Of a stretch of DNA of 39,423 nucleotides, positions 5,217-17,949 are shown piece after piece. Source of the stretch: Pseudomonadales bacterium (GTDB taxonomy: Bacteria > Pseudomonadota > Gammaproteobacteria > Pseudomonadales > Pseudohongiellaceae); NCBI GenBank assembly GCA_022825945.1, contig JAJDVS010000112.1:1-39423 (forward strand), written 5' to 3'. Position 1 is the stretch's first letter; each line of letters starts with the position of its first letter. The notes beneath the pieces were generated by a model. The model had not been told where the DNA came from. It saw only the letters and a list, made by a program, of their open reading frames with translations, and made no database searches. Made by a program: the position numbers and the translations under genes.

Positions 5217-6833
5217 ATGTTATTCCAGATTGACCAGGCGCGCTGCCGAATCAACCGCCATGACTTGTTCACCGTGGAGCGCTTTGCAGTCAACGCCGGC
5301 GAGCACTGGTGCGTTTTCGGCCCCAATGGCGCCGGCAAATCCCTGCTCGTCGACCTCATCACCGGGCGTCGTCCCGAAACCGGCAGCTACCTGCGATTCG
5401 CCGGGGGTTTTGACCCCGTCCGGGATATCCTGTCCGTTTCCTTCGAGGAGCAGCAGCGGCTGTGGCGGCGTGATGAGCGGCTCGACATCAGCGATTTCCG
5501 CGAAGACGCGATCGACCAGGGCACCCTGGTGGCTGAACTGATTCGTTCAAGCTTGCCAGCGGCGAAACAGGACGAATCACGACTGCGGGGGCTTGCTGCG
5601 GAGCTCGACCTCACCGCCCTGCTGCAAAAGGGAATCCGCTTTCTTTCCTCAGGCCAGATCCGCCGCGCTCTCATCGCCCGGGCGCTATACGGCCAGTACG
5701 CATCACGCCCGCGGCTGCTGATTTTCGATGAGCCACTGGAAGCGGTGGACCGGGAATCCCGCGCTCGCATCGAGCAGGCCATCGCCGGGCATCTTGGTCC
5801 CGGTTGCGCCAGCCTGCACCTGTGCCGGCGCGGGGGCGACCGCTTCCCCGGCGCAACGCATTTGCTCGTCATGGAAAACCTTGGCGTGCTGGCGCAGGGC
5901 CCAATGCGGGAAGCCCGATGGCAAAAGGCCATTGCGCGCTTTCGGCGCGAGCCGGTTATCCCCGAACGCCTGCCATTCGCGCACTTTGTTGACGAGACCA
6001 GCCGAAAAAAAAGCCGGAAAAGCCGGGACACCCATCCAAAAATCCAGGATACCCATTCCCCGGACACAAACCAGGACACCCACCCGCCTGAATCGAAACT
6101 GATCGAACTGAAAGGCGTGAGCGCCGGCTACGGCGACCTGCAAGTGCTGCGGGATGTTCACTGGACCATGACCAGCGCGCATCACGTGCTCGTCGAAGGC
6201 CCCAACGGCTGTGGCAAGTCCACCCTGCTGAGCCTCATCGACGGCGAGAACCACAAGGGCTATGGCCAGGAGGTGTACCTGTTCGGCCGGCGCAAGGGCA
6301 GCGGCGAGACCGTCTGGGACATCAAGCGCTGCTTTGGCGTCGTGTCCAATGAGTTGCACAACCGCTATGTGAAGGGCTGGAAAGTGCTCGATGTGGCGGT
6401 GTCGGGATTTTTTGATTCGGTGGGGCTTTACGACGACAGCGCCGCCAGTGAACAGGGTCGGGCCGGGGCCTGGCTTGAAAGTCTTGGCATGGCGCATCTT
6501 GCCGGGCGCTACTACCACCAGATTTCCTTCGGTCAGCAGCGCCTCGTGCTGCTCGCCCGGGCGATGGTGAAACAGCCCGCCATTCTCGTGCTCGACGAGC
6601 CCTGCGTCGGTCTCGATGACTACCACAGGGACTTCGTTCTCGGAATGCTCGACGCCATCGCCGGGCAAACACCCACCCGGCTGATTTACGTCAGCCACAT
6701 CCCCGACGAAAAACCCGCCTGCATCAATTACCGCCTGCGCTTCGTCGCCACCAGGGACGGCGGATACCGGCTGGAACAGTCGGAAGCAGGGCAGGGCGGC
6801 ACTTCCATGTGCCGCAGGGAAGCTCTGACTTGA
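5217..6833 (+). CDS. ModF-like twin ABC ATPase
   Basis: A 538-residue soluble protein with two ABC nucleotide-binding domains and no membrane segment, as in the ModF/PhrA group. Domain 1: Walker A GPNGAGKS at 35-42, signature LSSGQIRRAL, Walker B LLIFDEP. Domain 2: Walker A GPNGCGKST, signature ISFGQQRLVLLARAM, Walker B ILVLDEPCVGLD, H-loop YVSHIPDE. In domain 1 the usual H-loop histidine position reads CRRGGD, so that site may be catalytically weak. The domains are joined by a low-complexity linker with three DTHP/DTHS-like repeats (about residues 260-295) from a repeated GGACACCCA DNA motif. The last residues (TSMCRREALT) and the stop are supplied by an interspersed hairpin repeat. ModF function in E. 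coli is itself poorly defined, so the role here is open. Confidence 0.88.
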   Translation: MLFQIDQARCRINRHDLFTVERFAVNAGEHWCVFGPNGAGKSLLVDLITGRRPETGSYLRFAGGFDPVRDILSVSFEEQQRLWRRDERLDISDFREDAIDQGTLVAELIRSSLPAAKQDESRLRGLAAELDLTALLQKGIRFLSSGQIRRALIARALYGQYASRPRLLIFDEPLEAVDRESRARIEQAIAGHLGPGCASLHLCRRGGDRFPGATHLLVMENLGVLAQGPMREARWQKAIARFRREPVIPERLPFAHFVDETSRKKSRKSRDTHPKIQDTHSPDTNQDTHPPESKLIELKGVSAGYGDLQVLRDVHWTMTSAHHVLVEGPNGCGKSTLLSLIDGENHKGYGQEVYLFGRRKGSGETVWDIKRCFGVVSNELHNRYVKGWKVLDVAVSGFFDSVGLYDDSAASEQGRAGAWLESLGMAHLAGRYYHQISFGQQRLVLLARAMVKQPAILVLDEPCVGLDDYHRDFVLGMLDAIAGQTPTRLIYVSHIPDEKPACINYRLRFVATRDGGYRLEQSEAGQGGTSMCRREALT

Positions 6834-6845
6834 TCAGAGCTTCCC
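6817..6845. terminator. Perfect 12-bp hairpin at the end of the ModF-like gene (repeat family B)
   Basis: GGGAAGCTCTGA and TCAGAGCTTCCC form a perfect stem around the loop CTTGA. The stop TGA (6831-6833) sits in the loop and right arm. There is no long T-tract, so terminator function is inferred. It lies between convergent genes and could act on both strands. A related hairpin closes rlmE (23973-23995), and the arm resembles the IS5 terminus at 17364. Confidence 0.6.
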
Positions 6846-6857
6846 TAACGGTGCCGG

Positions 6858-7289
6858 TCAGCTGCGAATGTAATTCTGCAATTGCTCTATGGTCGCCCGC
6901 TGGTCGCTCATGATGTCCTTGACGATATCGCCAAGCGAGGCGATGCCCACCACCAGGCCGTCATCCACTACCGGCAAATGGCGGATGTGGTTGTCGGTCA
7001 TCAGATTGAGCGCAGCGTCCACGGCATGGCTGGAAGGCACCGAAACCACCCGGGTGGTCATGATTTCATCAACCCGGGTATCCCGCGAAGCGCGGCCCTT
7101 GAGAATCACCTCCCGGGCGTAATCGCGCTCGGAAATGATGCCCTGCAATTCGGGCCCGGTCATCACGAGCAAGGCGCCGACGCGATGATCCGCCATCAGC
7201 TTGATGGCGTCATAGACGCTGGCCTCCGGGCGAATGGAGCAGAGTTCCTTCTTCTGTTTGCGGTCGAGTATCTGTCGCATGGTATGCAT
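6858..7289 (-). CDS. CBS-domain pair protein
   Basis: A 143-residue protein made almost entirely of two CBS motifs. CBS1 is about 18-75 (ASVYDAIKLMADHRVGALLV, then GIISERDYAREV). CBS2 is about 82-138 (SSHAVDAALNLMTDNHIRHL, then LVVGIASLGDIVKDI). Such stand-alone pairs bind adenosyl ligands (AMP, ATP, SAM) and act as regulators of unknown partners. The ISERDY and SLGDIV segments are the usual ligand-contacting strands. The ATG at 7289 is supported by GGAGGCGCGCC just upstream on the minus strand. It lies 17 nt after the stop of the lipoprotein gene on the same strand, so the two may be co-transcribed. No nuclease, kinase or transporter domain is attached. Confidence 0.9.
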   Translation of the reverse strand: MHTMRQILDRKQKKELCSIRPEASVYDAIKLMADHRVGALLVMTGPELQGIISERDYAREVILKGRASRDTRVDEIMTTRVVSVPSSHAVDAALNLMTDNHIRHLPVVDDGLVVGIASLGDIVKDIMSDQRATIEQLQNYIRS

Positions 7290-7306
7290 GGCGCGCCTCC
7301 AGTGTT

Positions 7307-7864
7307 TCAGTCGAGCCGGGTCAGCAGGATATTGGCGTAACCCGCATTGTTGCCATAGAAACCGTAGCTGTCATTGACGAACAGGGCGAGATTGCCGCTG
7401 CACGCCGCGACGAAGCGGTAGCTGCCGCTCGCCGCGTCGTACTGCAGGTCGGAGACTCCCGCAAGGCTGTCCCGGGGGCAATCCGGCTGGCGCAGCATGA
7501 GTTCGAACCAGTTGTGGCTCCGGGACCGGCGCAGATTGCCCGCCCACTCGAAGGGCATCAGGCTGTTGCCGAAACCCCGCTCGTCCAGCGGTTCCCCGGC
7601 TTCATTGACGTCAATGTCGCGGTCGATCCAGTGGCTCAGGATCGTGATGCGAAAGGCGTAATCCGCTCCGGCGTCGAGGGATACGCCGGTATCGAAATTC
7701 AGGTAGCTGGTGAAAAAGTCCAGATTGACTTCTTCACCCACCGCCAGGGGGGCGCCCGGCCCGGCGGCGCCGAACAGGTTCAACCGGGGCGCCTGGCAGG
7801 CCCCGAGCAGCAGCAGGCTTGCCGCAAAAACCCCGGCAAGGGTCAACAAAGTGGTTCGATGCAC
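7307..7864 (-). CDS. Putative lipoprotein of unknown function
   Basis: With a GTG start at 7864 the product is 185 residues. GGGAG stands 7 nt upstream of that GTG; an ATG at 7897 would add 11 residues before the signal and looks less likely. The N-terminus (HRTTLLTLAGVFAASLLLL) ends in a lipobox GAC, so it should be exported and lipidated. The mature part is acidic, beta-rich by eye and ends NNAGYANILLTRLD. This tail recalls carbohydrate-binding or LecA-like sandwich proteins (FVNDSYGFYGNNAG), but I cannot assign a family. The first 98 bases of coding sequence and 75 bases upstream of the GTG recur at 17777-17949 as a truncated second copy on the far side of the defence island. Confidence 0.75.
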   Translation of the reverse strand: MHRTTLLTLAGVFAASLLLLGACQAPRLNLFGAAGPGAPLAVGEEVNLDFFTSYLNFDTGVSLDAGADYAFRITILSHWIDRDIDVNEAGEPLDERGFGNSLMPFEWAGNLRRSRSHNWFELMLRQPDCPRDSLAGVSDLQYDAASGSYRFVAACSGNLALFVNDSYGFYGNNAGYANILLTRLD

Positions 7865-7939
7865 TGGAATACTCCCTGGGTCATCAATCTCCGGCATGGA
7901 CCGCTCAGTCTACCCCGAGCGTTCATGCCGTCAAGTCCG
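7767..7939 (+). repeat. 173-bp direct repeat, left copy (flanks the defence island)
   Basis: Identical to 17777-17949 except for two G/A differences (7799 and 7880), in the same orientation. This copy is the 5' end and upstream region of an intact lipoprotein gene. Weak similarity continues for a few tens of bases past both right ends (CAAGT.GCC, ACAAGA). The two copies bracket 9.8 kb of accessory DNA. Confidence 0.95.
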
Positions 7940-8193
7940 GGCAAGTCGCCCTTTACAAGAATCCTGGTCCCCGGATAAGCGCGGCCCGCGGATTGCGGAG
8001 GCCGATCTCCGTCGTTTTTGTGTGCGTCGCCGGTCCCGGCATTGGCGGATTCTGGTTTTTTGTCGTGATGGACGGGGATTTGGCTCTGGCCGGGGGTTTC
8101 TCATGCAGGATTCTCGACCCGCGGGCGCGGGGCGACCCGCCACTGTCGGCGTCGCGGCCTTGCTCCAGGAGAGAGACGCGGCTATTCGAGTTG

Positions 8194-8663
8194 TCAGGCA
8201 GCGTACAGCAGCCAGTCGAGGCGGAAGTTCGTCGTGGCGAAATCCAGACGCCAGCATCGGCCGCTGCGCACCAGTCTGGCCATGGTGCGGATCAGATGAC
8301 GGATCAACGTACGCAGTCCGTGTGTGCGGTCCGCGACAGGCAGTAACTCGTATTGCATGGCGCGCAGCAGCAACTGCGCGAGCTGGCCGCAGGCGTAGAA
8401 CGCCTGATTGGCCCGGAAGTTCCGGCAGGGCGGATGGTGCAGGTCCAGATCCGCATGTGAGGTCAGGATGACCGTGTGCGAAGTCGGTAGACAAAGCTGG
8501 GGGCCGTCGTGAAGCCGCCGTACCATGACGTAGTCCTGCGTCTACCAGCCGCTGGGGCGGTGTCGCACCCGCGCCGTCGACTCGGCCAGCCACTCTGGCC
8601 GGTCAATTGCGTGTTCCTGAAGTCGATCTCGATTTTCGGCGGGTTTGGGATTATCTTGGACAT
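8194..8663 (-). pseudogene. IS1380-family transposase relic
   Basis: The minus strand carries both ends of an IS1380-type transposase without its middle. The N-terminus (ATG at 8663) reads MSKIIPNPPKIEIDF and NTQLTG, typical of this family's opening beta strands. After a frame change the C-terminus (about 8480-8194) reads HADLDLHHPPC, FRANQAFYACGQLAQLLL and TLIRHLIRTMARLVRSGRCW, the conserved H.d.gL.r.PC..F.AN block and final helices. About 470 bp remain of an expected 1.3-1.5 kb, and the DDE catalytic core is gone. It marks the left edge of the defence island. It is a different element from the IS1380 5' piece at 38384, whose N-terminus differs. Confidence 0.75.
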
Positions 8664-8966
8664 GCGGTGCACCTGCGGGGTGAGGGTTTCGTCACCCGGC
8701 ATTTTGCTATTTTCACCAAGCGGGTTGCGCCGCTCTTCTATCTGGATTCAATCCTTATCCGGGAATGAGGGAGATTGGCTGCACGGCGGACCGGGATCGA
8801 GAAGATGTACTATGATATTGACTGTACGTACATAATGGTATGATTCGACCCAATGGCTCTCCGAGTTATCTGGTTTGGTTCCGCTGCCGATATATAGCGT
8901 ATATGGCGCTTACGGAATATTTTTAACGACGATGTCCACAGTTGAAACAGAGGAAGGCGGGGAGCA
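8664..8966. other. Spacer upstream of the defence operon
   Basis: No gene is recognised. The first part is probably leftover IS end. The second part turns AT-rich and contains a likely promoter (8818-8844), the 10-bp palindrome TGTACGTACA at 8823-8832, and an inverted pair ATATA/TATAT around AGCG at about 8894-8906. Either palindrome could be an operator for a control protein, but no regulator gene is visible nearby. Confidence 0.5.
8818..8844 (+). promoter_or_regulatory. Possible promoter of the methyltransferase operon
   Basis: TTGACT (8818) and TATGAT (8839) are near-consensus -35 and -10 boxes. The spacer is 15 bp, shorter than the optimum 17. It leaves a leader of about 115 nt before the ATG at 8967. 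The palindrome TGTACGTACA overlaps the spacer, which would suit repression. Confidence 0.45.
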
Positions 8967-11180
8967 ATGACGGCCTGGATGCCTCAATATCAAGGAAAGC
9001 TCAACCTCGGGTCCGCACCTGCGGAGGAAGACCGTTTTCCACCGTTCAAAGGACCATGTGCTCTGGAAGACGACGACTTCCCCTTTGAGGCGATCAGTCA
9101 AATTGCCGCTGTCGAGAGTTGGCGAAAGGAAATCAATCGGCCGACGTACCACATCCATAAGTGGTGGGCGCATAGGCTCGGGACAGTCTTTCGAGCAATC
9201 GTGCTCGGTGCGCTCACGCCTTCTGGAACGGATGTGCTCGAAGCCTTTTATCGTCCTGTCCATTTAAGAAACAGGGTTATCTTCGATCCCTTCATGGGCA
9301 GTGGCACAACTATCGGGGAAACGCTCAAACTCGGGGCGCGCGCTATAGGCCGCGATATTAATCCGGTGGCGCACTTCCTGGTGCGGAACGCCCTTGCCGT
9401 TCATGATCGCAGAGCCATTCTCGAGACATTCCAGAGTATCCAGAACGATGTGGCTGAAACCATCAAGGCTTACTACAAGACTAAACTCAAGGACGGTGCG
9501 CAAGCCGATGTCTTGTACTATTTCTGGGTCAAACAAGTCGAATGCCCGAATTGCAGCGCGAGAGTCGACCTCTTTGCGACAAGGATTTTCGCGCGCCACG
9601 CCTACGCCAAACGTCATCCGGAATCTCAGGCCACTTGCCCTTCCTGTGGAGAAGTGAATCCAGTGGACTACGATGCCCATAACGCGGTCTGCTCAGGTTG
9701 CTCACTGGCTTTTGATCCGCAAGAGGGGCAAGCACATGGACAGAAGGCCACTTGCTCGGAGTGTTCTCACAGCTTTCCGATCGCCAAGACAGTGCAGGAA
9801 AAGAACGATCCGCCAGCGCACCGCCTCTATGCAAAGCTCGTTCTTCTCCCAGACGGGCGAAAGCAATACATGGCTGTAAACGAATCGGACCAAGAACTCT
9901 ATTTGAAGGCTTCTGAAGTATTGGCCCAGAGGAGTGATGCTTATCCCGTGGTTGGTCTGGAGCCTGGCTACAATACAAACCAGGTGCTCAGGTACAACTA
10001 CCGTTATTGGCACGAGATGTTCAATGATCGGCAATTGCTTTGCTTATCGATTTTGGCCGAACGCATACGCAAAGTGCCTGATCCGGCGCTCAAGAATCTG
10101 TTCACCTGCCTTTTCTCGGGTGCTCTCGAATTCAACAACATGTTCGCATCTTATAAAGGTGAAGGCACTGGTGCAGTTCGCCATATGTTCGCCCACCACA
10201 TCCTCAAACCTGAACGCATCCCACTTGAAGCTAATGTTTGGGGGACAGCCAAAAGTTCCGGTTCGTTCATGACAATGTTCGAGGGACGCATCCGTCGAGC
10301 TCTCGATTATGCCGACAACCCGTTTGAGTTGCGGCTCACCGATAGTCGGCGCCGCAGGGTTACAGAAAAGGTTTATGGTCTTTCTGAGCCTCTGGGTTCG
10401 GATATTGCCGCAGACTTTGACGCCTTTGAAAAAGGAAAACGCGTTTATCTGTCGTGCGGTGATTCCAGCCAGACTGATCTGGCAGATGGAAGCGTGGATG
10501 CCATAATTAGCGATCCACCCTTCTTCGACAATGTTCATTACTCCCAACTCGCCGACTTCTTTCATGTGTGGCAGCGTCATATCCTGGACGATCAGGAGCA
10601 AAGATTGTCTCGGACTACACGCTCAGTCGCCGAAGTGCAAAATGCCGATGCAGATGCCTTTACCCAGAGACTGTCGAAGGTCTGGGTCGAAGCCCATCGA
10701 GTCCTGGCCGATGAAGGCGTGCTTGTTTTTACTTACCATCACTCACGCAACGAAGGCTGGAGTTCAGTTCTCCATGCCGTTATGAAGGCGGGATTCGCCG
10801 TCACAGCCGCTCATCCAATCAAAGCCGAGATGTCGGTGGCCATGCCCAAGCTCCAAGCCAAAGAACCAATCGATCTCGACATTATTCTGGTATGCCGCAA
10901 GCGCTCCAGCCTCCCTTCTCTTCAATGGAACGGAGACTTGTGGGACACCATCCTTCCAATTGTATCTGAACAGGTAGTGCGGCTAAGGGAACTCCGGCAA
11001 AAGCTCAGTCTCAACGATGTTCGGATTATTGTAATGGCGCAGTTAATTCGACAACTGTCACGAATGCGTGAATTGAAGGCAGCTCTCTCTCTTCTGCAAA
11101 CGAGCGAGCCGGAAATCGAGGACGCGATTCAGAACTTGCATACTCCATATTGTGATAATTTTGAAGAGGCAAATTCATGA
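8967..11180 (+). CDS. DNA amino-methyltransferase with internal zinc-finger block
   Basis: A 737-residue DNA methylase. HKWWAHR at 64-70 is the conserved N-terminal block of the DUF1156-like DNA methylase group. The SAM-binding motif I is DPFMGSGTT at 107-115. Motif IV, SDPPFFD, is at 515-521 and marks an N6-adenine or N4-cytosine methyltransferase. Between them, four CxxC pairs (193/196, 224/227, 242/245, 263/266) predict two zinc ribbons, possibly for target recognition. The 400-residue gap between motifs I and IV is large but usual for this architecture. The start is supported by GGCGGGGAG just upstream. Its stop overlaps the next start (ATGA), so translation of the nuclease is coupled to it. 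Target sequence unknown. Confidence 0.88.
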   Translation: MTAWMPQYQGKLNLGSAPAEEDRFPPFKGPCALEDDDFPFEAISQIAAVESWRKEINRPTYHIHKWWAHRLGTVFRAIVLGALTPSGTDVLEAFYRPVHLRNRVIFDPFMGSGTTIGETLKLGARAIGRDINPVAHFLVRNALAVHDRRAILETFQSIQNDVAETIKAYYKTKLKDGAQADVLYYFWVKQVECPNCSARVDLFATRIFARHAYAKRHPESQATCPSCGEVNPVDYDAHNAVCSGCSLAFDPQEGQAHGQKATCSECSHSFPIAKTVQEKNDPPAHRLYAKLVLLPDGRKQYMAVNESDQELYLKASEVLAQRSDAYPVVGLEPGYNTNQVLRYNYRYWHEMFNDRQLLCLSILAERIRKVPDPALKNLFTCLFSGALEFNNMFASYKGEGTGAVRHMFAHHILKPERIPLEANVWGTAKSSGSFMTMFEGRIRRALDYADNPFELRLTDSRRRRVTEKVYGLSEPLGSDIAADFDAFEKGKRVYLSCGDSSQTDLADGSVDAIISDPPFFDNVHYSQLADFFHVWQRHILDDQEQRLSRTTRSVAEVQNADADAFTQRLSKVWVEAHRVLADEGVLVFTYHHSRNEGWSSVLHAVMKAGFAVTAAHPIKAEMSVAMPKLQAKEPIDLDIILVCRKRSSLPSLQWNGDLWDTILPIVSEQVVRLRELRQKLSLNDVRIIVMAQLIRQLSRMRELKAALSLLQTSEPEIEDAIQNLHTPYCDNFEEANS

Positions 11181-11968
11181 GCCTTGTATGCGCCGTGTTC
11201 AAGGAATGTGTCTCCGCCATGCGCGATGGCATCCTCATTGAGCGCAACGATCAAAATGACAAAGAATTCCATTTCCAGAACTGGTTCAAGTCTCGCCTTG
11301 ATGACGTAGGTGAGAATTACGATGAATCTGGTCGCAACACTTATCCTGATTTCAAGCTCGTTCGCTACTGTGAGGGGTTCGAGTTGAAAGGGCTGGCTTA
11401 TCCGGGCCGGGACGCCGACTATGATTGCAATAGTCAGGTTCCATGCGGCGAACACAATGGACGCCAAGTGTTCTATGTATTCGGCCGTTATCCAAAAAGG
11501 CCGGATGGCAACCGGTACCCTGTTCTGGATCTGGTAGTTTGTCACGGTAGTTTCTTGAACGCCGACAGTACTTACGTTCACGAGAACAAGAGCTTTCGGG
11601 GGATTGGTAGCTACGGCGATATACTGGTGCGAGATCGGAAAATGTATGTTGCGCCGACGCCATTTGCCTTGGCCGATGGCACAGCGCATCACCGTACGCT
11701 GATTCTTCCTGCTGATATGCCGGTAGATGATGACTTGGTCGAAGTTTCGAGTCTGACGCGGCGCGAAGTTGAGCGAATGGTAGCTGCCTACAATTTTGAC
11801 TTGCGCTCCAATGAACTCAAGACAACTCTAGTTCCAAACCCTTCCGCTGGCACCGCGCATTTCTTCAAGGCGTATCGCCTGCGGGGCGACCCCATTGCGC
11901 CACTGACCTTACGCGAGCGCTCCCGCGAAATTGCCGAGCAAGCATACCAGTACTTGATTGATGGTTAA
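11177..11968 (+). CDS. Putative restriction endonuclease, PD-(D/E)XK type
   Basis: A 263-residue protein that overlaps the methyltransferase gene by 4 bp. The likely catalytic core is YPDFKLV (Asp58) followed by FELKGL (Glu69, Lys71), a PD-x(10)-ExK pattern on neighbouring beta strands. Upstream, the helix EFHFQNWFKSRL would supply the usual acidic N-terminal residue. The middle contains VFYVFGRYP and VLDLVVCHG, strands expected for this fold. The C-terminal part (LTLRERSREIAEQAY) is helical. Coupled expression and the neighbouring methylase make a type II-like restriction role the natural reading. I do not recognise a named restriction family. Alternative: a nicking or methyl-directed nuclease. 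It is clearly less GC-rich than the flanking chromosome. Confidence 0.7.
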   Translation: MSLVCAVFKECVSAMRDGILIERNDQNDKEFHFQNWFKSRLDDVGENYDESGRNTYPDFKLVRYCEGFELKGLAYPGRDADYDCNSQVPCGEHNGRQVFYVFGRYPKRPDGNRYPVLDLVVCHGSFLNADSTYVHENKSFRGIGSYGDILVRDRKMYVAPTPFALADGTAHHRTLILPADMPVDDDLVEVSSLTRREVERMVAAYNFDLRSNELKTTLVPNPSAGTAHFFKAYRLRGDPIAPLTLRERSREIAEQAYQYLIDG

Positions 11969-12021
11969 ATGCGAGAAATAGGAATTTTCATTCCTTCACT
12001 ATTGGAACGTGCTCCGAATTT

Positions 12022-14469
12022 ATGGAATCCAAATCCAACAACCATGAGGAACAATTGGCGATACCCGAAAGCATTAAGCCATCGGAGTTTATGCGCGGTC
12101 TGCGCCCCGAATACTATTCCGATAGCAAAGACCGAACGACTACCAGTCTGCGGGCTGACCAATTCGAATACCATCTGGACACGATAACCTCCCGAAACCA
12201 GGACCACGATTTCGAGTTGTTCTGCCGCAAACTCTGCGAACGAGCAATATGTCCGGGCTTGAGAGCACAGACTGGTCCCGAAGGTGGTGGCGACAGTAAG
12301 GTCGATACAGAAACTCTACCGGCCTCTGAAGAGATTCGGGAACGCTACTATGAAGGCATCGCGAACCACGGAAGCGAGAAATGGGCCTTTGCGATTAGCG
12401 CTAAGAAAAAATGGACAGATAAAGCCCGTAGCGATGTACGTGGCATCGTACACACGGGCCGCGGCTATGAACGTATTTTTTTCGTCACCAGTAGGCACGC
12501 TCGCGCCAAAGACCGTGCCAGATTGGAGGATGAGCTTACCAACTTATATGGAATTCCGGTCACTATTCACGACCGCACATGGATCGTTGATGAGACTATA
12601 GCAAAGGAGCGAACTGATCTCGCGTATAATTTCCTAAAGGTCGGCGAGGCCGAAAGTACCCCTAAGCTTGGCCCGAATGACTATTTACGGAAAAGCCAGC
12701 TTGAAGAAATTGAGAGCGAGATTCACAATCCCGATGACTTCGCAGGTATGAAGCTTCAACTCGCCTCGCAAGCGCTGGTGGCTGCAAGACTTTCGCGTAA
12801 CCTTGAACTGCCTCGCGATGACACGAATGGTCGATTTTCCAGAGCTATCCGACTTGCTGAGAAATACGGCACATCGCGCCAGAAACTCGAAGCGCGTTAC
12901 GAGCGCGTCTGGACCGCCTTCTGGTGGTTTAATGACTTTGATTTCCTGCTCGCAGAATATGAAGAGTTCGAAGAAAGATCTCTTCAATCTGATAATACTG
13001 TTGACCTCGAATGGCTCTGCAACCTATTTCAATTGCTAGTAAACAGCGTCATTTACGGACACGTTTCAGCAGCAGACGCAAAACTTTGGGAACGTGCAGA
13101 TAGACTCGAAGAAAAGCTGGAAAGCCTCGCGAACGAACGAGGGCGACCAAACAACCAACTCGAAGCGCGCTCTGCAATACTGCTCATTCATTTCAATCGT
13201 GCAATGCTGAAGAACGAACATGAGCAGCTTCCAAAAATCTGGAGAAAATATGCCAAAGTGGTAGACGATGCGCGTGGATTGGGAGAATTCGATTTTAGGA
13301 CATTGATTCGCATCATCGATCTTTCAGGGGAATTGGCAGGAAACGACCCTGATTACAATGATCTTGTCGAGGTATGTGCAAACGCAGTGGCGGAAAGGGA
13401 AAGTGAAGGCAAGGCCGCTCTCATGCATCTGAATCGAGCTAAAAAGCTCAGCTTCGACGACAACTTCGATATGATTCGTTGGCTTGGCAAAGCCGCTGTA
13501 GGATTGTTTAAACAGGAATACACGGAAGAACTTGCTGACGCAATGTTTTACTTGGCCTTGGCGTATCGAAGTGCAGGCCTCTTATGGGCTGCACGAGCAA
13601 GCTGTGCTGTGACCATGGCCACTCTCTTCACCGCGATGGAAAGAGAAAATGACATCCCGATTGAGGCCATAAGGACTTCAATGCTCTGGGCGTGGATATC
13701 ATTGGAGTTGGGGCATCTGCCGGATGTGCTAAACAATATACAACTACTCAACGGTCTCTTGGTTAACACATCCTTGAGTGACAATTCCAAGGACCGCATG
13801 GATACGCAGCTACGAGACTTTGATCTGGCCTTGGGGGTCTTCATCCTAAATTTGGACGCTGACGACCTTAGCCACGTGGAAAAACTGCCAGATGTACTCG
13901 ATAGTTTGGGATTAAGAGTTGCGCACATAGCGCTCCTATATGCGCTCGGTCATCTGGAGACATTGCGGGTCAATAAGACAATTCCTGAACTTGAGTCCGA
14001 TGAAGCTGTGGCAGAGATGATGAGTCAACTGAAAAACCAGAGCATCTCGGACAATTTCGATGTGCCGCTTGTACTAAATGAGGATGGCGTCCAATCTTTG
14101 AGCAGTTTGATTCTTGGCATGCGGGTCATAGTCGATTTCGAGGGCGCTGAGCTAATTCCCGTTGCGGAAACAATTGTGGGAGCTTTAGAGGCGTTCTTTG
14201 CTACAGCAATCGAGCAAAAGATTGTTCCACATGTTGAAGAGTATCGAATCAACCTGGTAGCGAATGACGATACGAACAAACCTCAAGTACTGACAGAAGC
14301 TCTCCAAATGATGACGCAAGTAGTCTGGCCGCGCCAACTTGACGTCGGAGATCCTGAAAAAAGCCATGATATCCATGAATCGCTGTCTCTCCTCGCGGTC
14401 AATGTTCTGGGAGTAAGCTGCATTACCCCTAATTTCGAAGACCTGATAAAACGACTGATTAATGATTAA
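12022..14469 (+). CDS. Mrr-like nuclease domain fused to a long helical-repeat region
   Basis: 815 residues. The N-terminal 200 look like a PD-(D/E)XK restriction fold: helix DFELFCRKLCERAI (61-76), GGGDSKVDTE (88-97, Asp91/Asp95), then WAFAISAKKKW (121-131) in the E/SxK strand position, and RIFFVTSRHARAKDR (151-165). The segment TIHDRTWIVDE (181-191) closes the domain. From about 230 to the end the protein is almost entirely alpha-helical with repeated WA..SCAVTMA, YLALAYRSAGL and LWAWISLELGHLPD units, resembling degenerate TPRs. No Walker A or STAND NTPase motif is present between them, unlike Avs-type nucleases. It follows the nuclease gene by 53 nt. Inference: effector nuclease with a sensor or partner-binding tail. 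Confidence 0.65.
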   Translation: MESKSNNHEEQLAIPESIKPSEFMRGLRPEYYSDSKDRTTTSLRADQFEYHLDTITSRNQDHDFELFCRKLCERAICPGLRAQTGPEGGGDSKVDTETLPASEEIRERYYEGIANHGSEKWAFAISAKKKWTDKARSDVRGIVHTGRGYERIFFVTSRHARAKDRARLEDELTNLYGIPVTIHDRTWIVDETIAKERTDLAYNFLKVGEAESTPKLGPNDYLRKSQLEEIESEIHNPDDFAGMKLQLASQALVAARLSRNLELPRDDTNGRFSRAIRLAEKYGTSRQKLEARYERVWTAFWWFNDFDFLLAEYEEFEERSLQSDNTVDLEWLCNLFQLLVNSVIYGHVSAADAKLWERADRLEEKLESLANERGRPNNQLEARSAILLIHFNRAMLKNEHEQLPKIWRKYAKVVDDARGLGEFDFRTLIRIIDLSGELAGNDPDYNDLVEVCANAVAERESEGKAALMHLNRAKKLSFDDNFDMIRWLGKAAVGLFKQEYTEELADAMFYLALAYRSAGLLWAARASCAVTMATLFTAMERENDIPIEAIRTSMLWAWISLELGHLPDVLNNIQLLNGLLVNTSLSDNSKDRMDTQLRDFDLALGVFILNLDADDLSHVEKLPDVLDSLGLRVAHIALLYALGHLETLRVNKTIPELESDEAVAEMMSQLKNQSISDNFDVPLVLNEDGVQSLSSLILGMRVIVDFEGAELIPVAETIVGALEAFFATAIEQKIVPHVEEYRINLVANDDTNKPQVLTEALQMMTQVVWPRQLDVGDPEKSHDIHESLSLLAVNVLGVSCITPNFEDLIKRLIND

Positions 14470-14490
14470 GTCGTACTCTACAGGATTTCC

Positions 14491-15186
14491 ATGGTGATGG
14501 CATGCTCCAATAGCTACAACCGCATTAACAACAAATCTTACGCTCAGCTCAAAGATTGGGATAAACTCATTCCAAAACGCTTTGAACTTAAGGCTCAAAG
14601 ACCTGCATTTTTTCCACAAAACAAAAATAAGGAGTTCGAACGAACGGAACAGACCGACATTGCTATTCCAAAGAGCCACAAGAAACTGGCGGTCCGCTCG
14701 GTAATCCATTCGCCGACATGGGACAAGGCCATTTGGCGGGGCTGTGGCTACTTAAGTTTTGGGTATGATCTTCCACCCAACATGGCACTTCTGTTCGAAG
14801 ACGAGAGTGCGGGTCGGAAGATTTTCGAGCAGTGGCGTGATCGTTTTGGAGATAGAGATGAAAAAGATGAAATTGCCATTTCGATTATCCGAAACGTGCC
14901 CGAATTGAAACCCCATCACTATATCGTTCAGATTGGGTCAAGCCTGCCAGAAAATGACAATTTGAACAAATCAAGAAAGGTCACGTTTGTGACACGCTAT
15001 TCTGAAATGAATCCAGATAGTTCAAAAAACCTTAATCGCTTTCTTGCAGATTATAGGCGGATTGGCGTTTACAAAATCGTACCCGGATTTCTGAAACGCG
15101 CGCCAGAAACAGGACCAGAATTTGACTTTAGCGTTGCTATTGCAAAAAAAGCTCTCACAGTTAAGAATGCTGATGAAAATCAATGA
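14491..15186 (+). CDS. Unknown protein, last gene of the methyltransferase operon
   Basis: Up to 231 residues; the start may be ATG 14491 or ATG 14497. It follows the 815-aa gene by 21 nt in the same direction, so it is probably co-transcribed. I recognise no family. The N-terminal 60 residues are basic and polar (KAQRPAFFPQNKNKEFERTE). The central part (IWRGCGYLSFGYDLPPNMAL) and the block HHYIVQIGSSLP look like a compact alpha/beta domain, and EQWRDRFGDRDEKDEIAI is helical. No signal peptide, membrane helix, zinc site or nuclease motif is obvious. Its fixed position in the operon suggests an accessory protein, for example an immunity, specificity or regulatory partner of the 815-aa protein, which is inference only. 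It converges on the dGTPase gene 57 nt downstream. Confidence 0.6.
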   Translation: MVMACSNSYNRINNKSYAQLKDWDKLIPKRFELKAQRPAFFPQNKNKEFERTEQTDIAIPKSHKKLAVRSVIHSPTWDKAIWRGCGYLSFGYDLPPNMALLFEDESAGRKIFEQWRDRFGDRDEKDEIAISIIRNVPELKPHHYIVQIGSSLPENDNLNKSRKVTFVTRYSEMNPDSSKNLNRFLADYRRIGVYKIVPGFLKRAPETGPEFDFSVAIAKKALTVKNADENQ

Positions 15187-15242
15187 AACCGATTTTGAAG
15201 CCGTCGCCATGCAATTACGAAGAATTAGGCAGAAATGAAATT

Positions 15243-16541
15243 CTACAACTCGTCGCGACTAGATCCTCTCCCTGGAAGAAAAAGACGACTATATATTTTT
15301 TCTGCATAGTTATCAGTCATTCCTGCAATGTAATCACAAACCCTTCTATCTTTATCATCGTCATCATTAAGCGCACTCCATGCAGATTCAGGGATTAGGT
15401 CTGCTGGCGCCAAAGCAAACTCATCAAATAATTTCTTGATAATTCTCTGACCTCGGCGCTCCAATTGTTGAATCTCAGCATGCTTTATTACAAGATCATA
15501 TGTAAGTTTTTTAAGCGTTTTAAGTAATTTCTCAATAGGTTCTTCAAACTTTACATGGTATTTGAGCAATGGATGAAAAAATTCCTCTTTTGACCATAAC
15601 GAACAAGATGTTATAAACAAGTTTATTAACTTTCCAATCAGCCTTTTCCTTGCAAAACTATTTTCAAATAGATCTTTCTCAAATTCACCTAGACTAACCC
15701 CCTTTTCACTCCCACCTATTATTGGGCCAAATTCGCAAAATACTGGTTGCAAGTATTTAGTAACTTCATCCTGGCGCACCATCTGTCTAGCTACTACGTC
15801 CTCCAAGTCATGAACTGCATAAACGACATCATCTGCCGTTTCCATAATGGAACTGTCAAGTGTTCTGTGGACCGGTTTTCCTGCGGAGATTCCTCCACTT
15901 GTGAATCGTTCAATTTCGCCATCCGAAAATGGATCTCCCAATGCCCAATCCACAATTAGCTTCTCAGTGTCGAAGTAGCATTTTGGAGGCTTCGCAGGAA
16001 AACTACTTATATCAAAATTTGAATATGGAACTGGATATTTTAGTAGGGCCAAGATCAAGCGCCGCGTCGGATTCATTCCTTTGCCAGCCTTGTACTTCTC
16101 CAAGCGAGTTACAATTCGTAGAGTTTGACCATTTCCCTCAAAACCTCCAGAATTTATCATTCGAGCATGGAGGGCCTTCTCTCCACTATGACCAAAAGGC
16201 GGGTGACCAAGGTCATGAGCCAAGCAAGCTGCTACCAACAAGTCATTTGGCGGCAGCCATTCTAGCGCTTCTTGTGCACCTGCTTTCCTGAAGCATATTG
16301 AAGCCAAAATTCCTTCACCAATTTGCGACACCTCAATCGAATGGGTTAATTGTGTTCGGTGGAAATCACCTTCGCCAACTCCCATAACCTGAGTTTTTGC
16401 CTGAAGTCTACGAAACCCAGAAGAATGGATGATACGAGACTTATCGCGGTGATACTCATCTCTCTCGTCTTCAGCCCTTGGAGGCTCGTATTCCCAGAAT
16501 CGCTGCCTAAACACTTTGTTGTTCATTCTACACTGCGCCAA
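15243..16541 (-). CDS. Deoxyguanosinetriphosphate triphosphohydrolase-like protein (dGTPase)
   Basis: About 432 residues of HD-domain dNTPase that hydrolyses dGTP or related dNTPs to nucleoside and triphosphate. Motifs: RDKSRIIHSSGFRRLQ and KTQV (family N-terminus), LTHSIEVSQIG (first metal His), HDLGHPPFGHSGE (HD pair plus His), and METADDVVYAVHDLEDVV (final Asp). All four metal ligands appear present. TTG at 16541 is the best start: AAGGAGG (16550-16556) stands 8 nt before it. ATG at 16526 is the alternative but lacks a site. HD dNTPases of this kind are known anti-phage proteins that deplete nucleotides, and this one lies in a defence island with markedly AT-rich codon use. It follows the HNH-like gene by about 33 nt on the same strand. 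Confidence 0.88.
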   Translation of the reverse strand: MAQCRMNNKVFRQRFWEYEPPRAEDERDEYHRDKSRIIHSSGFRRLQAKTQVMGVGEGDFHRTQLTHSIEVSQIGEGILASICFRKAGAQEALEWLPPNDLLVAACLAHDLGHPPFGHSGEKALHARMINSGGFEGNGQTLRIVTRLEKYKAGKGMNPTRRLILALLKYPVPYSNFDISSFPAKPPKCYFDTEKLIVDWALGDPFSDGEIERFTSGGISAGKPVHRTLDSSIMETADDVVYAVHDLEDVVARQMVRQDEVTKYLQPVFCEFGPIIGGSEKGVSLGEFEKDLFENSFARKRLIGKLINLFITSCSLWSKEEFFHPLLKYHVKFEEPIEKLLKTLKKLTYDLVIKHAEIQQLERRGQRIIKKLFDEFALAPADLIPESAWSALNDDDDKDRRVCDYIAGMTDNYAEKIYSRLFLPGRGSSRDEL

Positions 16542-16549
16542 AATCAACT

Positions 16550-16556
16550 CCTCCTT
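16550..16556 (-). promoter_or_regulatory. Ribosome-binding site deciding the dGTPase start
   Basis: On the minus strand AAGGAGG is followed after 8 nt by TTG (16541-16539). The other in-frame starts are too near (TTG 16547, 2 nt) or too far (ATG 16526, 23 nt). Confidence 0.7.
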
Positions 16557-16574
16557 AGGCTAAATCGAAAAATT

Positions 16575-17339
16575 CTACCAATTTTCCCAAATTGTTTCGG
16601 TTGCCAAATATTCCCAAATTACCGTGCGCACAGTAACACATGAAGACCAATCAACGAAGTATCGATACTTGCCCTCTTCAACTACTATCCAGCCGTCAAC
16701 CGTGTCCACTCCTGCAGTTATTCTCTCCATCATACGACTACCCATTTCAGGCCAGACGCTAGGACCATCTCCGGTATCTTCAAAACTCTCTTTAGACTCT
16801 TCGGGCAACTGGCTAAATGGCACAAAAGAGACAATGGTCGGCTCACCTAGAGCCTCACTCAATTCATGATATGCATGGCCTCTCGCATTTTTCAATATAA
16901 CCCTACGAATACGATCAGGGTCTGGGTAAAGTACGAAAGGCTCATTCTCGCCACTAAAGAGCGGTATTTGGCCATCTGGCCCGTACTTGAGCAACTTAAC
17001 AATGTCCCGGTTACTACGCAATAAATGATAAGCTTCTTTGTTAACCTTTGGATCAGGGTAAAGTGTCCCTGCGAATACTGCTTGCAACACGCAGAGCAAA
17101 TACACCTCGTCTCTTGAAAATCCGGAGTTACAGCGCTTGCAAATAATCACTTGCGGCAGGTAGTCGTAAGGCTTAACACCTTTCTTGTCATATTCTGCAC
17201 CTCTTTCTCTCATTTTTTTCGACAAGAATAGCTTACTTGGCACATGATCGCGATTTACCTCAATACTTGCAATTGCTCTATTACAATGGATACACCACTG
17301 TTTCAGGCGATTATCACTAAAATCTTCCAGTTCCAACAT
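16575..17339 (-). CDS. HNH-like zinc-binding protein
   Basis: 254 residues. The N-terminal 80 residues form a treble-clef HNH-type site: CIHC (16-19), NRDHVPSK (Asp31, His32), then IICKRCNSGFSRDE with Cys67, Cys70 and Asn71. The spacing and the DHVPSKLFL wording match a small, poorly studied family annotated as HNH endonuclease-like. The remaining 170 residues are alpha/beta without a recognised domain and end in EYLATETIWENW. Whether it cuts DNA is not proven by the motif. It is first in a two-gene unit with the dGTPase on the minus strand, AT-rich like its neighbour. Its upstream region is only 25 nt long before an IS5-type end begins, so its original promoter may be lost or supplied by the element. 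Confidence 0.65.
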   Translation of the reverse strand: MLELEDFSDNRLKQWCIHCNRAIASIEVNRDHVPSKLFLSKKMRERGAEYDKKGVKPYDYLPQVIICKRCNSGFSRDEVYLLCVLQAVFAGTLYPDPKVNKEAYHLLRSNRDIVKLLKYGPDGQIPLFSGENEPFVLYPDPDRIRRVILKNARGHAYHELSEALGEPTIVSFVPFSQLPEESKESFEDTGDGPSVWPEMGSRMMERITAGVDTVDGWIVVEEGKYRYFVDWSSCVTVRTVIWEYLATETIWENW

Positions 17340-17363
17340 CTTTCGAGTCTTACGCTAATTCTA

Positions 17364-17776
17364 GGGAAGATCTGATCAACTGCCGATATGGGGGCCATTT
17401 GTCCATCCCCGGGTTTTTTGGCGATCCTCCATCGAATCAGTCGCCGGATTTCCGCCGGAATCATGGATTCTGGCCCATTTCCACCTCTTTCCACGGTGTG
17501 CGGGCGCACCCACCCTATCTCAAGCCGCCGCGTAGCGGCCGGCGATCAACAGATTCGAGAAACCCGGCAACATCGCGATGCGCTGTGTGTTCTTCGCCAA
17601 ACCCCGGTACCTCACCTTGCCGTAGCCAAAGTGCCGTTTCACATACAGGGACGGATGCTCCACCTTCGCCCGCACCGACGCCTTGCGCTTCTCTACCGCC
17701 GCCTCCGGACCATCCCTGTCCAGTTCGCGCCGCCGCCCGGCTTCATCACGGTTCGCCGAGGTGGTTGCCAGCGTAT
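17364..17776 (-). mobile_element. IS5-family element, truncated 3' part
   Basis: 17364-17382 (GGGAAGATCTGATCAACTG, after CTA) looks like an IS5-group terminal inverted repeat at a CTAG-type target. On the minus strand 17776-17520 encodes a transposase C-terminus: KASVRAKVEHPSLYVKRHFG, YGKVRYRGLAKNT and FSNLLIAGRYAAA, the classic end of IS5 transposases, with stop at 17520-17522. The N-terminal two thirds and the other terminus are missing. Instead, the sequence joins abruptly to the right copy of the 173-bp repeat at 17777. Non-autonomous. Confidence 0.8.
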
Positions 17777-17949
17777 GCGCCGAACAGGTTCAACCGGGGC
17801 GCCTGGCAAGCCCCGAGCAGCAGCAGGCTTGCCGCAAAAACCCCGGCAAGGGTCAACAAAGTGGTTCGATGCACTGGAATACTCCCTGGATCATCAATCT
17901 CCGGCATGGACCGCTCAGTCTACCCCGAGCGTTCATGCCGTCAAGTCCG
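17777..17949 (+). repeat. 173-bp direct repeat, right copy (lipoprotein 5' fragment)
   Basis: Two mismatches to 7767-7939. This copy has only the first 98 bases of the lipoprotein coding region (minus strand) plus its upstream DNA; the rest is replaced by the IS5 remnant. It lies between the defence island and carA. Confidence 0.95.

Follow-up and report, generated by a model that had tools for sequence, protein, structure and literature searches.

A type II-like restriction-modification pair beside an interrupted gene of a widespread nuclease-motif protein family

The described systems closest to the locus treated here are type II restriction-modification (R-M) systems, made up of a methyltransferase (M) and an endonuclease (R); the anti-phage DUF1156 methylases and BREX-related systems; the Mrr-type (type IV) nucleases; and the STAND/Avs sensors. 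PD-(D/E)XK domains were present in 13 of 31 further validated Escherichia coli systems according to the part of PMC13092281 covered here, in which TPR appear in the figure legends. We analyzed a stretch of 39,423 nucleotides (nt) from a Pseudomonadales bacterium (assembly GCA_022825945.1, contig JAJDVS010000112.1), hereafter the window, in which four open reading frames (ORFs) on the forward strand occupy positions 8967-15186: gene 1 (8967-11180, 737 amino acids (aa)), gene 2 (11177-11968, 263 aa), gene 3 (12022-14469, 815 aa), and "gene 4" (14491-15186, 231 aa). The ORF positions, the shared direction, the 4-bp overlap of genes 1 and 2 (ATGA), and the following gaps of 53 and 21 nt were re-derived as given in a preliminary description, which had read the four ORFs as one composite defence system. 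Our results instead divide the stretch into a type II-like R-M pair that is complete in itself (8967-11968) and a separate, interrupted gene (12022-15186). Taken as a whole, the explanation that we regard as quite likely is that the stretch belongs to a small, mobile defence island in which two unrelated units lie side by side.

Relatives of the two units were found in different places. The gene-3 family was followed in 98 loci, comprising 80 genome, 10 plasmid, 5 viral-contig, and 3 genome-search loci and forming 87 clusters at 95% DNA identity (73 clusters for the 80 genome loci). L096 and L103, which are the same place, were counted once (as L103), and L058 and L114, which look like the same place, were counted twice; the weak genome match G236 was excluded, and one unannotated phage record (27%) was not inspected. 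The length of flanking DNA covered varied, reaching the full 18 kb in 45 of the 80 genome loci and being short in the genome-search loci. In the flanks covered, gene 1, gene 2, and the dGTPase and HNH-like proteins of the window's island (described below) had no match at E ≤ 0.001 in any of the 98 loci, and the gene-4 part was present in 94 of them. Besides the window, gene 2 was found at eight loci (four of four plasmid records, two genomes of the same genus, and two viral contigs), all of them lacking an intact gene 3 within the DNA covered. Thus no unrelated genome showed the four families together in this order, and in the DNA covered genes 3 and 4 lay apart from the pair in all 98 loci, an outcome that the preliminary description had itself named as refuting its reading. 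Among 369 genomes of the class, gene 2 was found only in the window's own genome and the gene-3 family in four (the window's own included, and one of them weak), with both units together in the window's own genome only. Among 97 related genomes, again including the window's own, gene 2 was found in three and gene 3 in three, in one case only as its first 32 residues.

Some observations weigh against so clean a separation. The arrangement in the window is tight and co-directional, and a stretch of the same-genus genome G018 (L101:1-1778) shows 97.1% DNA identity to window positions 10339-12116, diverging 95 nt into gene 3. As this copy still includes the initial 95 nt of gene 3, the two units stood next to each other in at least one ancestor, and since the gene 2/gene 3 junction is kept at 97% identity, the adjacency predates the window's genome. 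The G018 copy lies at another chromosomal place and has decayed, gene 2 having a stop at codon 34 and gene 3 being cut after 31 codons. In G037, also of the same genus, a DUF1428 gene directly follows the pair, and the contig ends ~0.5 kb past gene 2. The preliminary description had proposed that the methylase marks self DNA and that two nucleases act on different signals. The compact layout and the shared junction speak for such a composite four-gene system, but with neither gene 1 nor gene 2 at any gene-3 locus and no intact gene 3 at any other gene-2 locus in the DNA covered, both units together in a single genome of the class, and "gene 4" being no separate gene, we consider it highly improbable.

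Genes 3 and 4 together form a single gene, whose relatives encode proteins of ~1,070 aa with a last ~230 aa that match "gene 4"; the earlier count of four separate genes does not hold. A plasmid protein search with gene 3 gave 14 records, ten of which were inspected (H6, H8, H9, and H14 were left out). Eight of these relatives were translated, and each consists of one ORF, 1017-1112 aa long, the shortest (L009) ending beside an IS5 transposase gene; the remaining two are a copy that is itself broken (L013) and a distant one (L012). "Gene 4" aligns to the C-termini of three of the single-ORF relatives at 32% (E = 3e-32), 42% (3e-39), and 31% (3e-24). A genome scan with one genome per species yielded 215 stretches encoding gene-3 relatives, and in 71 of the best 80, which were retained as loci, an uninterrupted frame of 1045-1121 aa (median 1076) spans both the gene 3 part and the gene 4 part. 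The other nine have a gene-4 match outside the frame (four), run off the contig end (three), or show no C-terminal match (two).

In the window, the two ORFs are in the same frame and are separated by one in-frame TAA (14467-14469, forward strand). The family profile matches positions 12049-15189 in one continuous match that runs across the TAA, and when both pieces were projected onto 42 relatives, the stop replaced exactly one codon in 23, with different values (from -2 to 22) in the remaining 19. The codons from the stop to the ATG of "gene 4" are still family-like, including the family's invariant Arg, and therefore suggest that the stop is recent. The same picture could come from an assembly or sequencing error, with the gene intact in the organism, since the assembly is a draft of 113 contigs and a single codon is affected in family-like surroundings. 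However, a genuine recent nonsense mutation would leave the same picture, and the sister island copy in G018 decays too, with its own stop in gene 2 and its truncated gene 3; an error is in our view unlikely. The large gene in this genome would most likely be inactive or freshly broken.

Several observations on the detached part and on other family members argue for caution on this point. "Gene 4" (14491-15186, forward strand; 231 codons, all open) keeps an ATG, which lies 21 nt past the stop and aligns with a Met of the relative P0008, with AGGA 5 nt upstream, and the detached C-terminal domain could be translated. In Tsuneonella, the ORF L077:7929-10439 is family-like up to approximately the window's stop and ends there, and no C-terminal part is found in the remaining 884 nt; because it ends near the same place, our confidence in the preferred explanation is slightly lower. 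Neither is the interruption unique, as four of the 80 loci (L033, L048, L078, and L091) carry breaks as well, at positions that differ from the window's. The start region and the open frame of "gene 4" would fit a functional gene fission, in which gene 3 and "gene 4" are translated apart and form a two-subunit nuclease, and given L077, there may be proteins elsewhere that do without the C-terminal domain. Yet 71 of the 80 loci are fused, the four whose gene-4 match lies outside the frame are interrupted elsewhere, L077 lacks a separate C-terminal ORF in the DNA that follows, and the few family-like codons between stop and ATG are what a recent stop would give. Moreover, the window's stop falls at the end of a predicted gluzincin-like domain, ahead of its last residues. 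Fission is therefore distinctly unlikely, and we continue with the reading of one interrupted gene. As a separate observation, the breaks in L033, L048, L078, and L091 hint at frequent loss in the large family.

The pair at 8967-11968 has the content of a type II unit, and the preliminary description was right to see it as such. Gene 1 (forward strand) is a DUF1156-like amino-methyltransferase (N6/N4), with matches to Pfam N6_N4_Mtase (4.8e-12) and PADLOC DUF1156_MTase (1.2e-28); its DUF1156 N-terminus is weak, scoring 23.5 bits (6.3e-05) against Pfam DUF1156, under the cutoff of 24. Motif I (DPFMGSGTT) begins at residue 107 and motif IV reads SDPPFFDNVHY, with DPP at 516-518, and between the two lies a zinc-ribbon-like insert with CxxC pairs. 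D107-P-F-x-G-S-G and D516-P-P are invariant in all seven aligned sequences (the window and six relatives), and gene 1 thus carries both the S-adenosylmethionine (SAM)-binding and the catalytic methyltransferase motifs of a type II pair. It also matches the phage DNA methyltransferase family PHROG 10183 (3.5e-116). Gene 2 (forward strand, 263 aa) encodes a putative restriction endonuclease with a PD-x10-E-x-K motif, which is kept in six of six aligned sequences (the window and five relatives), and it has no match in Pfam, PADLOC, NCBIfam, or PHROGs. A methyltransferase-linked endonuclease gene with a nuclease motif is thereby in place, and a gene-1-type methylase adjoins gene 2 in seven of its eight other loci, with the endonuclease gene first (R-M) in five and the methylase gene first (M-R) in two. 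In the proposed mechanism, the gene 1 amino-methyltransferase with its zinc-ribbon-like insert would modify a host site, and the gene 2 PD-(D/E)XK endonuclease would cut DNA without the mark; the families and motifs of the pair are found directly, and its specificity and its restriction of unmodified DNA are presumed from them.

The exception among the eight loci is L105:5833-6729, a gene-2 relative (42%) on a 166-kb viral contig, which lies in a phage-like neighbourhood and has no gene-1 match in the 12.7 kb covered. Elsewhere (L006:7001-12843, L014:6965-11898, L007, and L104), the gene after the pair encodes an AAA ATPase in two records, whereas DUF262 and HEPN-like genes follow it on a plasmid (as annotated) and on a viral contig (by our own reading). 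As the genes after the pair vary on plasmids and the viral contig, the pair has differing neighbours.

In the interrupted large gene, the N-terminal 815 codons (12022-14469, forward strand) are predicted to comprise a PD-(D/E)XK-type domain (residues ~1-217), a TPR superhelix (~218-668), and the greater part of a degenerate gluzincin-like domain (~688-815), with borders that were transferred by eye from the predicted model of the relative L017 and are approximate. The preliminary description had noted an Mrr-type motif followed by a helical repeat, and both were recovered: the N-terminus of gene 3 carries the motif set GGGD...SAK, and a helical-repeat tail is predicted in the model of an intact relative. 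Within the family, D91 is kept in 43 of 43 rows and K128 in 42 of 43, and gene 3 shows the D...(Q/S)xK motif in the Mrr arrangement, the same as in E. coli Mrr. That gene 3 lacks an NTPase, as also noted earlier, agrees with the library scans, which matched no NTPase family in genes 2-4. The order of nuclease-motif domain, TPR superhelix, degenerate aminopeptidase-like domain, and C-terminal domain is predicted with good model confidence.

The nuclease assignment has points against it. The gene 3 nuclease domain gave no detectable profile match to one E. coli Mrr sequence (hhalign probability 0.2), no Pfam nuclease, Mrr included, matched in 44 rows of the family, and the nuclease part found no convincing sequence match in the PDB (a single match, E = 0.42). 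The assignment therefore draws on the motif and on predicted secondary structure, and gene 3 is best called a putative nuclease. Elsewhere in the protein, the C-terminal part of the family had no PDB sequence match, and the whole family's only one was the designed protein 8g4k (E = 0.00015), which we took as chance helical-repeat similarity. Foldseek on both models returned no match at E ≤ 0.001, the whole-model searches having probed the TPR part only, as TPR matches filled their lists; a missing match for the nuclease or C-terminal domain therefore does not point to a new fold. The family had no match in PADLOC, and in Pfam at E ≤ 0.01 a single Cdc6-lid match (0.0058) was found among the 44 rows; NCBIfam and PHROGs gave no match for the window's two pieces (gene 3 and "gene 4"). 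A further part of this nuclease-motif TPR protein is the degenerate M1/M61 aminopeptidase-like domain at L017 residues ~684-820, corresponding to window positions ~14083-14466. The HExxH zinc motif was found in none of 42 rows of the family, which argues against a gluzincin metallopeptidase.

An intact family protein would act as a single-gene nuclease with the N-terminal PD-(D/E)XK-type domain as effector. The TPR superhelix, the degenerate metallopeptidase-like domain, and the C-terminal domain would most likely recognise a sign of phage infection and activate the nuclease, which would then cut DNA, and this activation would proceed without nucleoside triphosphate (NTP) hydrolysis. We infer a phage-defence role because of the mobile and defence-type contexts of the family together with its nuclease motif, and the family is probably one of single-gene defence nucleases. 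In a further step, which we put forward tentatively and hold to be somewhat less than an even chance, it would be an undescribed NTP-independent, single-protein immune sensor-nuclease that occurs across a number of bacterial phyla and has recruited a dead peptidase fold as a ligand- or protein-recognition trigger module. Literature searches for a TPR-nuclease defence family, with the parts of PMC13092281, PMC7159879, and PMC9122126 covered here, gave no account of this protein, although supplementary material may list a member.

The contexts of the family would also suit a role in serving its mobile elements, in maintenance or transfer, in place of defence. Six of the 14 plasmid records with gene-3 relatives are typed conjugative and four mobilizable. 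Neighbours were scanned in 124 of 199 ORFs at positions ±1 or ±2 with lengths of 130-900 aa, which were mechanically called and some of which are surely spurious; nine near-duplicate or short loci were dropped (L016, L040, L059, L069, L072-L074, L087, and L094). Integrase, resolvase, and ParA-type families are among these neighbours, with Phage_integrase in 5 of the 124 ORFs. On the other side, models of type I R-M, GajA, AbiEii, and other defence systems also match neighbours on other genome contigs, each in one or two of the 124 ORFs, the window copy lies in an island with R-M, dGTPase, and HNH genes, and there is no constant neighbour family. It is thus doubtful that the large family serves its mobile elements only, and a defence role is preferred. 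The neighbourhoods also contain points against that role. No recurrent partner gene was found near the large family, the largest neighbour clusters occurring in 9, 8, 8, and 6 of the 80 loci. In the first three of these, 7, 7, and 8 loci are of the Sphingopyxis type (L053, L054, L059, L069, L072-L074, and L088) and mostly near-identical, and by our reading the neighbour shared by 9 loci resembles a tyrosine integrase. The defence matches are scattered and come without a baseline, and no enrichment is claimed from them, so that the defence role is moderately supported. On two plasmids of two genera (L008:4858-10168 and L013:5401-8193), the large gene, broken in L013, adjoins a divergent pair of ATPase and S8 peptidase genes, possibly a second defence unit.

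Both units lie in a low-GC insertion of ~10 kb (~7940-17949), with a GC content of 0.496 at 7950-17776 and 0.63 in the flanks. It is bounded by a 173-nt direct repeat on the forward strand, with the left copy at 7767-7939, covering the 5' end of an ORF (7307-7897, reverse strand) and the DNA before it, and the right copy at 17777-17949, at the right edge of the insertion. The two copies are 99% identical and 10,010 bp apart, and a repeat of 173 nt far exceeds the length of usual transposon target duplications. An empty site with one repeat unit is present in G032, where window positions 5240-7946 correspond to L130 1-2613 and 18139-18301 to L130 2626-2788. G018 is also empty at this site (L132), its left flank extending over only 131 nt before the contig end. 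Transposase remnants lie on the reverse strand at both ends of the island, at 8194-8526 (DDE_Tnp_1_4, 6.5e-05, C-terminal part only, below cutoff) and at 17520-17789 (DDE_Tnp_1, 0.00022, below cutoff), and carA is the right-hand neighbour of the island. Convergent to the large gene is an anti-phage-type dGTPase (HD) gene (15243-16547, reverse strand), which scored 449.5 bits against NF041026, above its cutoff of 400, and matched PADLOC dGTPase (1.7e-131). It is accompanied by a gene for an HNH-like protein (16575-17339, reverse strand), with a weak match to Pfam HNH_5 (0.0035, below cutoff). Relatives of the HNH-like protein occur in nine plasmid records, and the three inspected all sit near DNA methylase or restriction genes.

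The analysis removes a false "new system" and offers an example of a single gene that resembles two because of a premature stop. What remains is an R-M pair of a familiar kind next to a broken member of an unnamed, widespread family of large proteins. This family is the part worth following, with its nuclease motif, its unusual sensor-like build, and its presence in 215 genome stretches and also on plasmids. If it does protect against phages, it would represent a new single-gene type of defence, and intact members are at hand in ordinary environmental bacteria, such as Desulfobulbus elongatus (L017) and Variovorax sp. EL159 (L018).

Compared with known systems, the large family differs from the catalytic domain of M1/M61 gluzincin aminopeptidases in lacking HExxH in 42 rows and is at most a degenerate relative. 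It resembles STAND/Avs sensors (PMC9122126) in outline only, sharing an N-terminal nuclease and C-terminal helical repeats as a possible sensor, but it has no recognised NTPase beyond the weak Cdc6-lid match and no PADLOC match; membership was rejected, as no STAND NTPase domain was found in 44 rows. The GGxGD...xAK arrangement is common to E. coli Mrr and gene 3, whereas gene 3 shows no detectable profile similarity to the E. coli Mrr sequence compared, and its nuclease-motif domain is joined to a TPR superhelix and further C-terminal domains. Membership of gene 3 in Mrr was set aside for want of this similarity, and the motif resemblance is retained. Gene 1 resembles the DUF1156 anti-phage methylases (NF042963) and, as far as the part of PMC12839542 covered here describes them, the BREX-related systems in its weak DUF1156 N-terminus and its methyltransferase core. 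However, it scored 126.3 bits against NF042963, whose curated cutoff is 1000, and is not a member, and no ATPase or helicase partner was found among the island proteins scanned. BREX, DISARM, and DUF1156-type systems were set aside on the score far under the cutoff and the lack of partner genes among these proteins. With type II R-M systems, the differences are that the window's R protein matches no family model searched and that gene order varies by lineage, whereas the likeness lies in the core of the unit, an amino-methyltransferase that carries SAM and DPP motifs and adjoins a PD-(D/E)XK protein.

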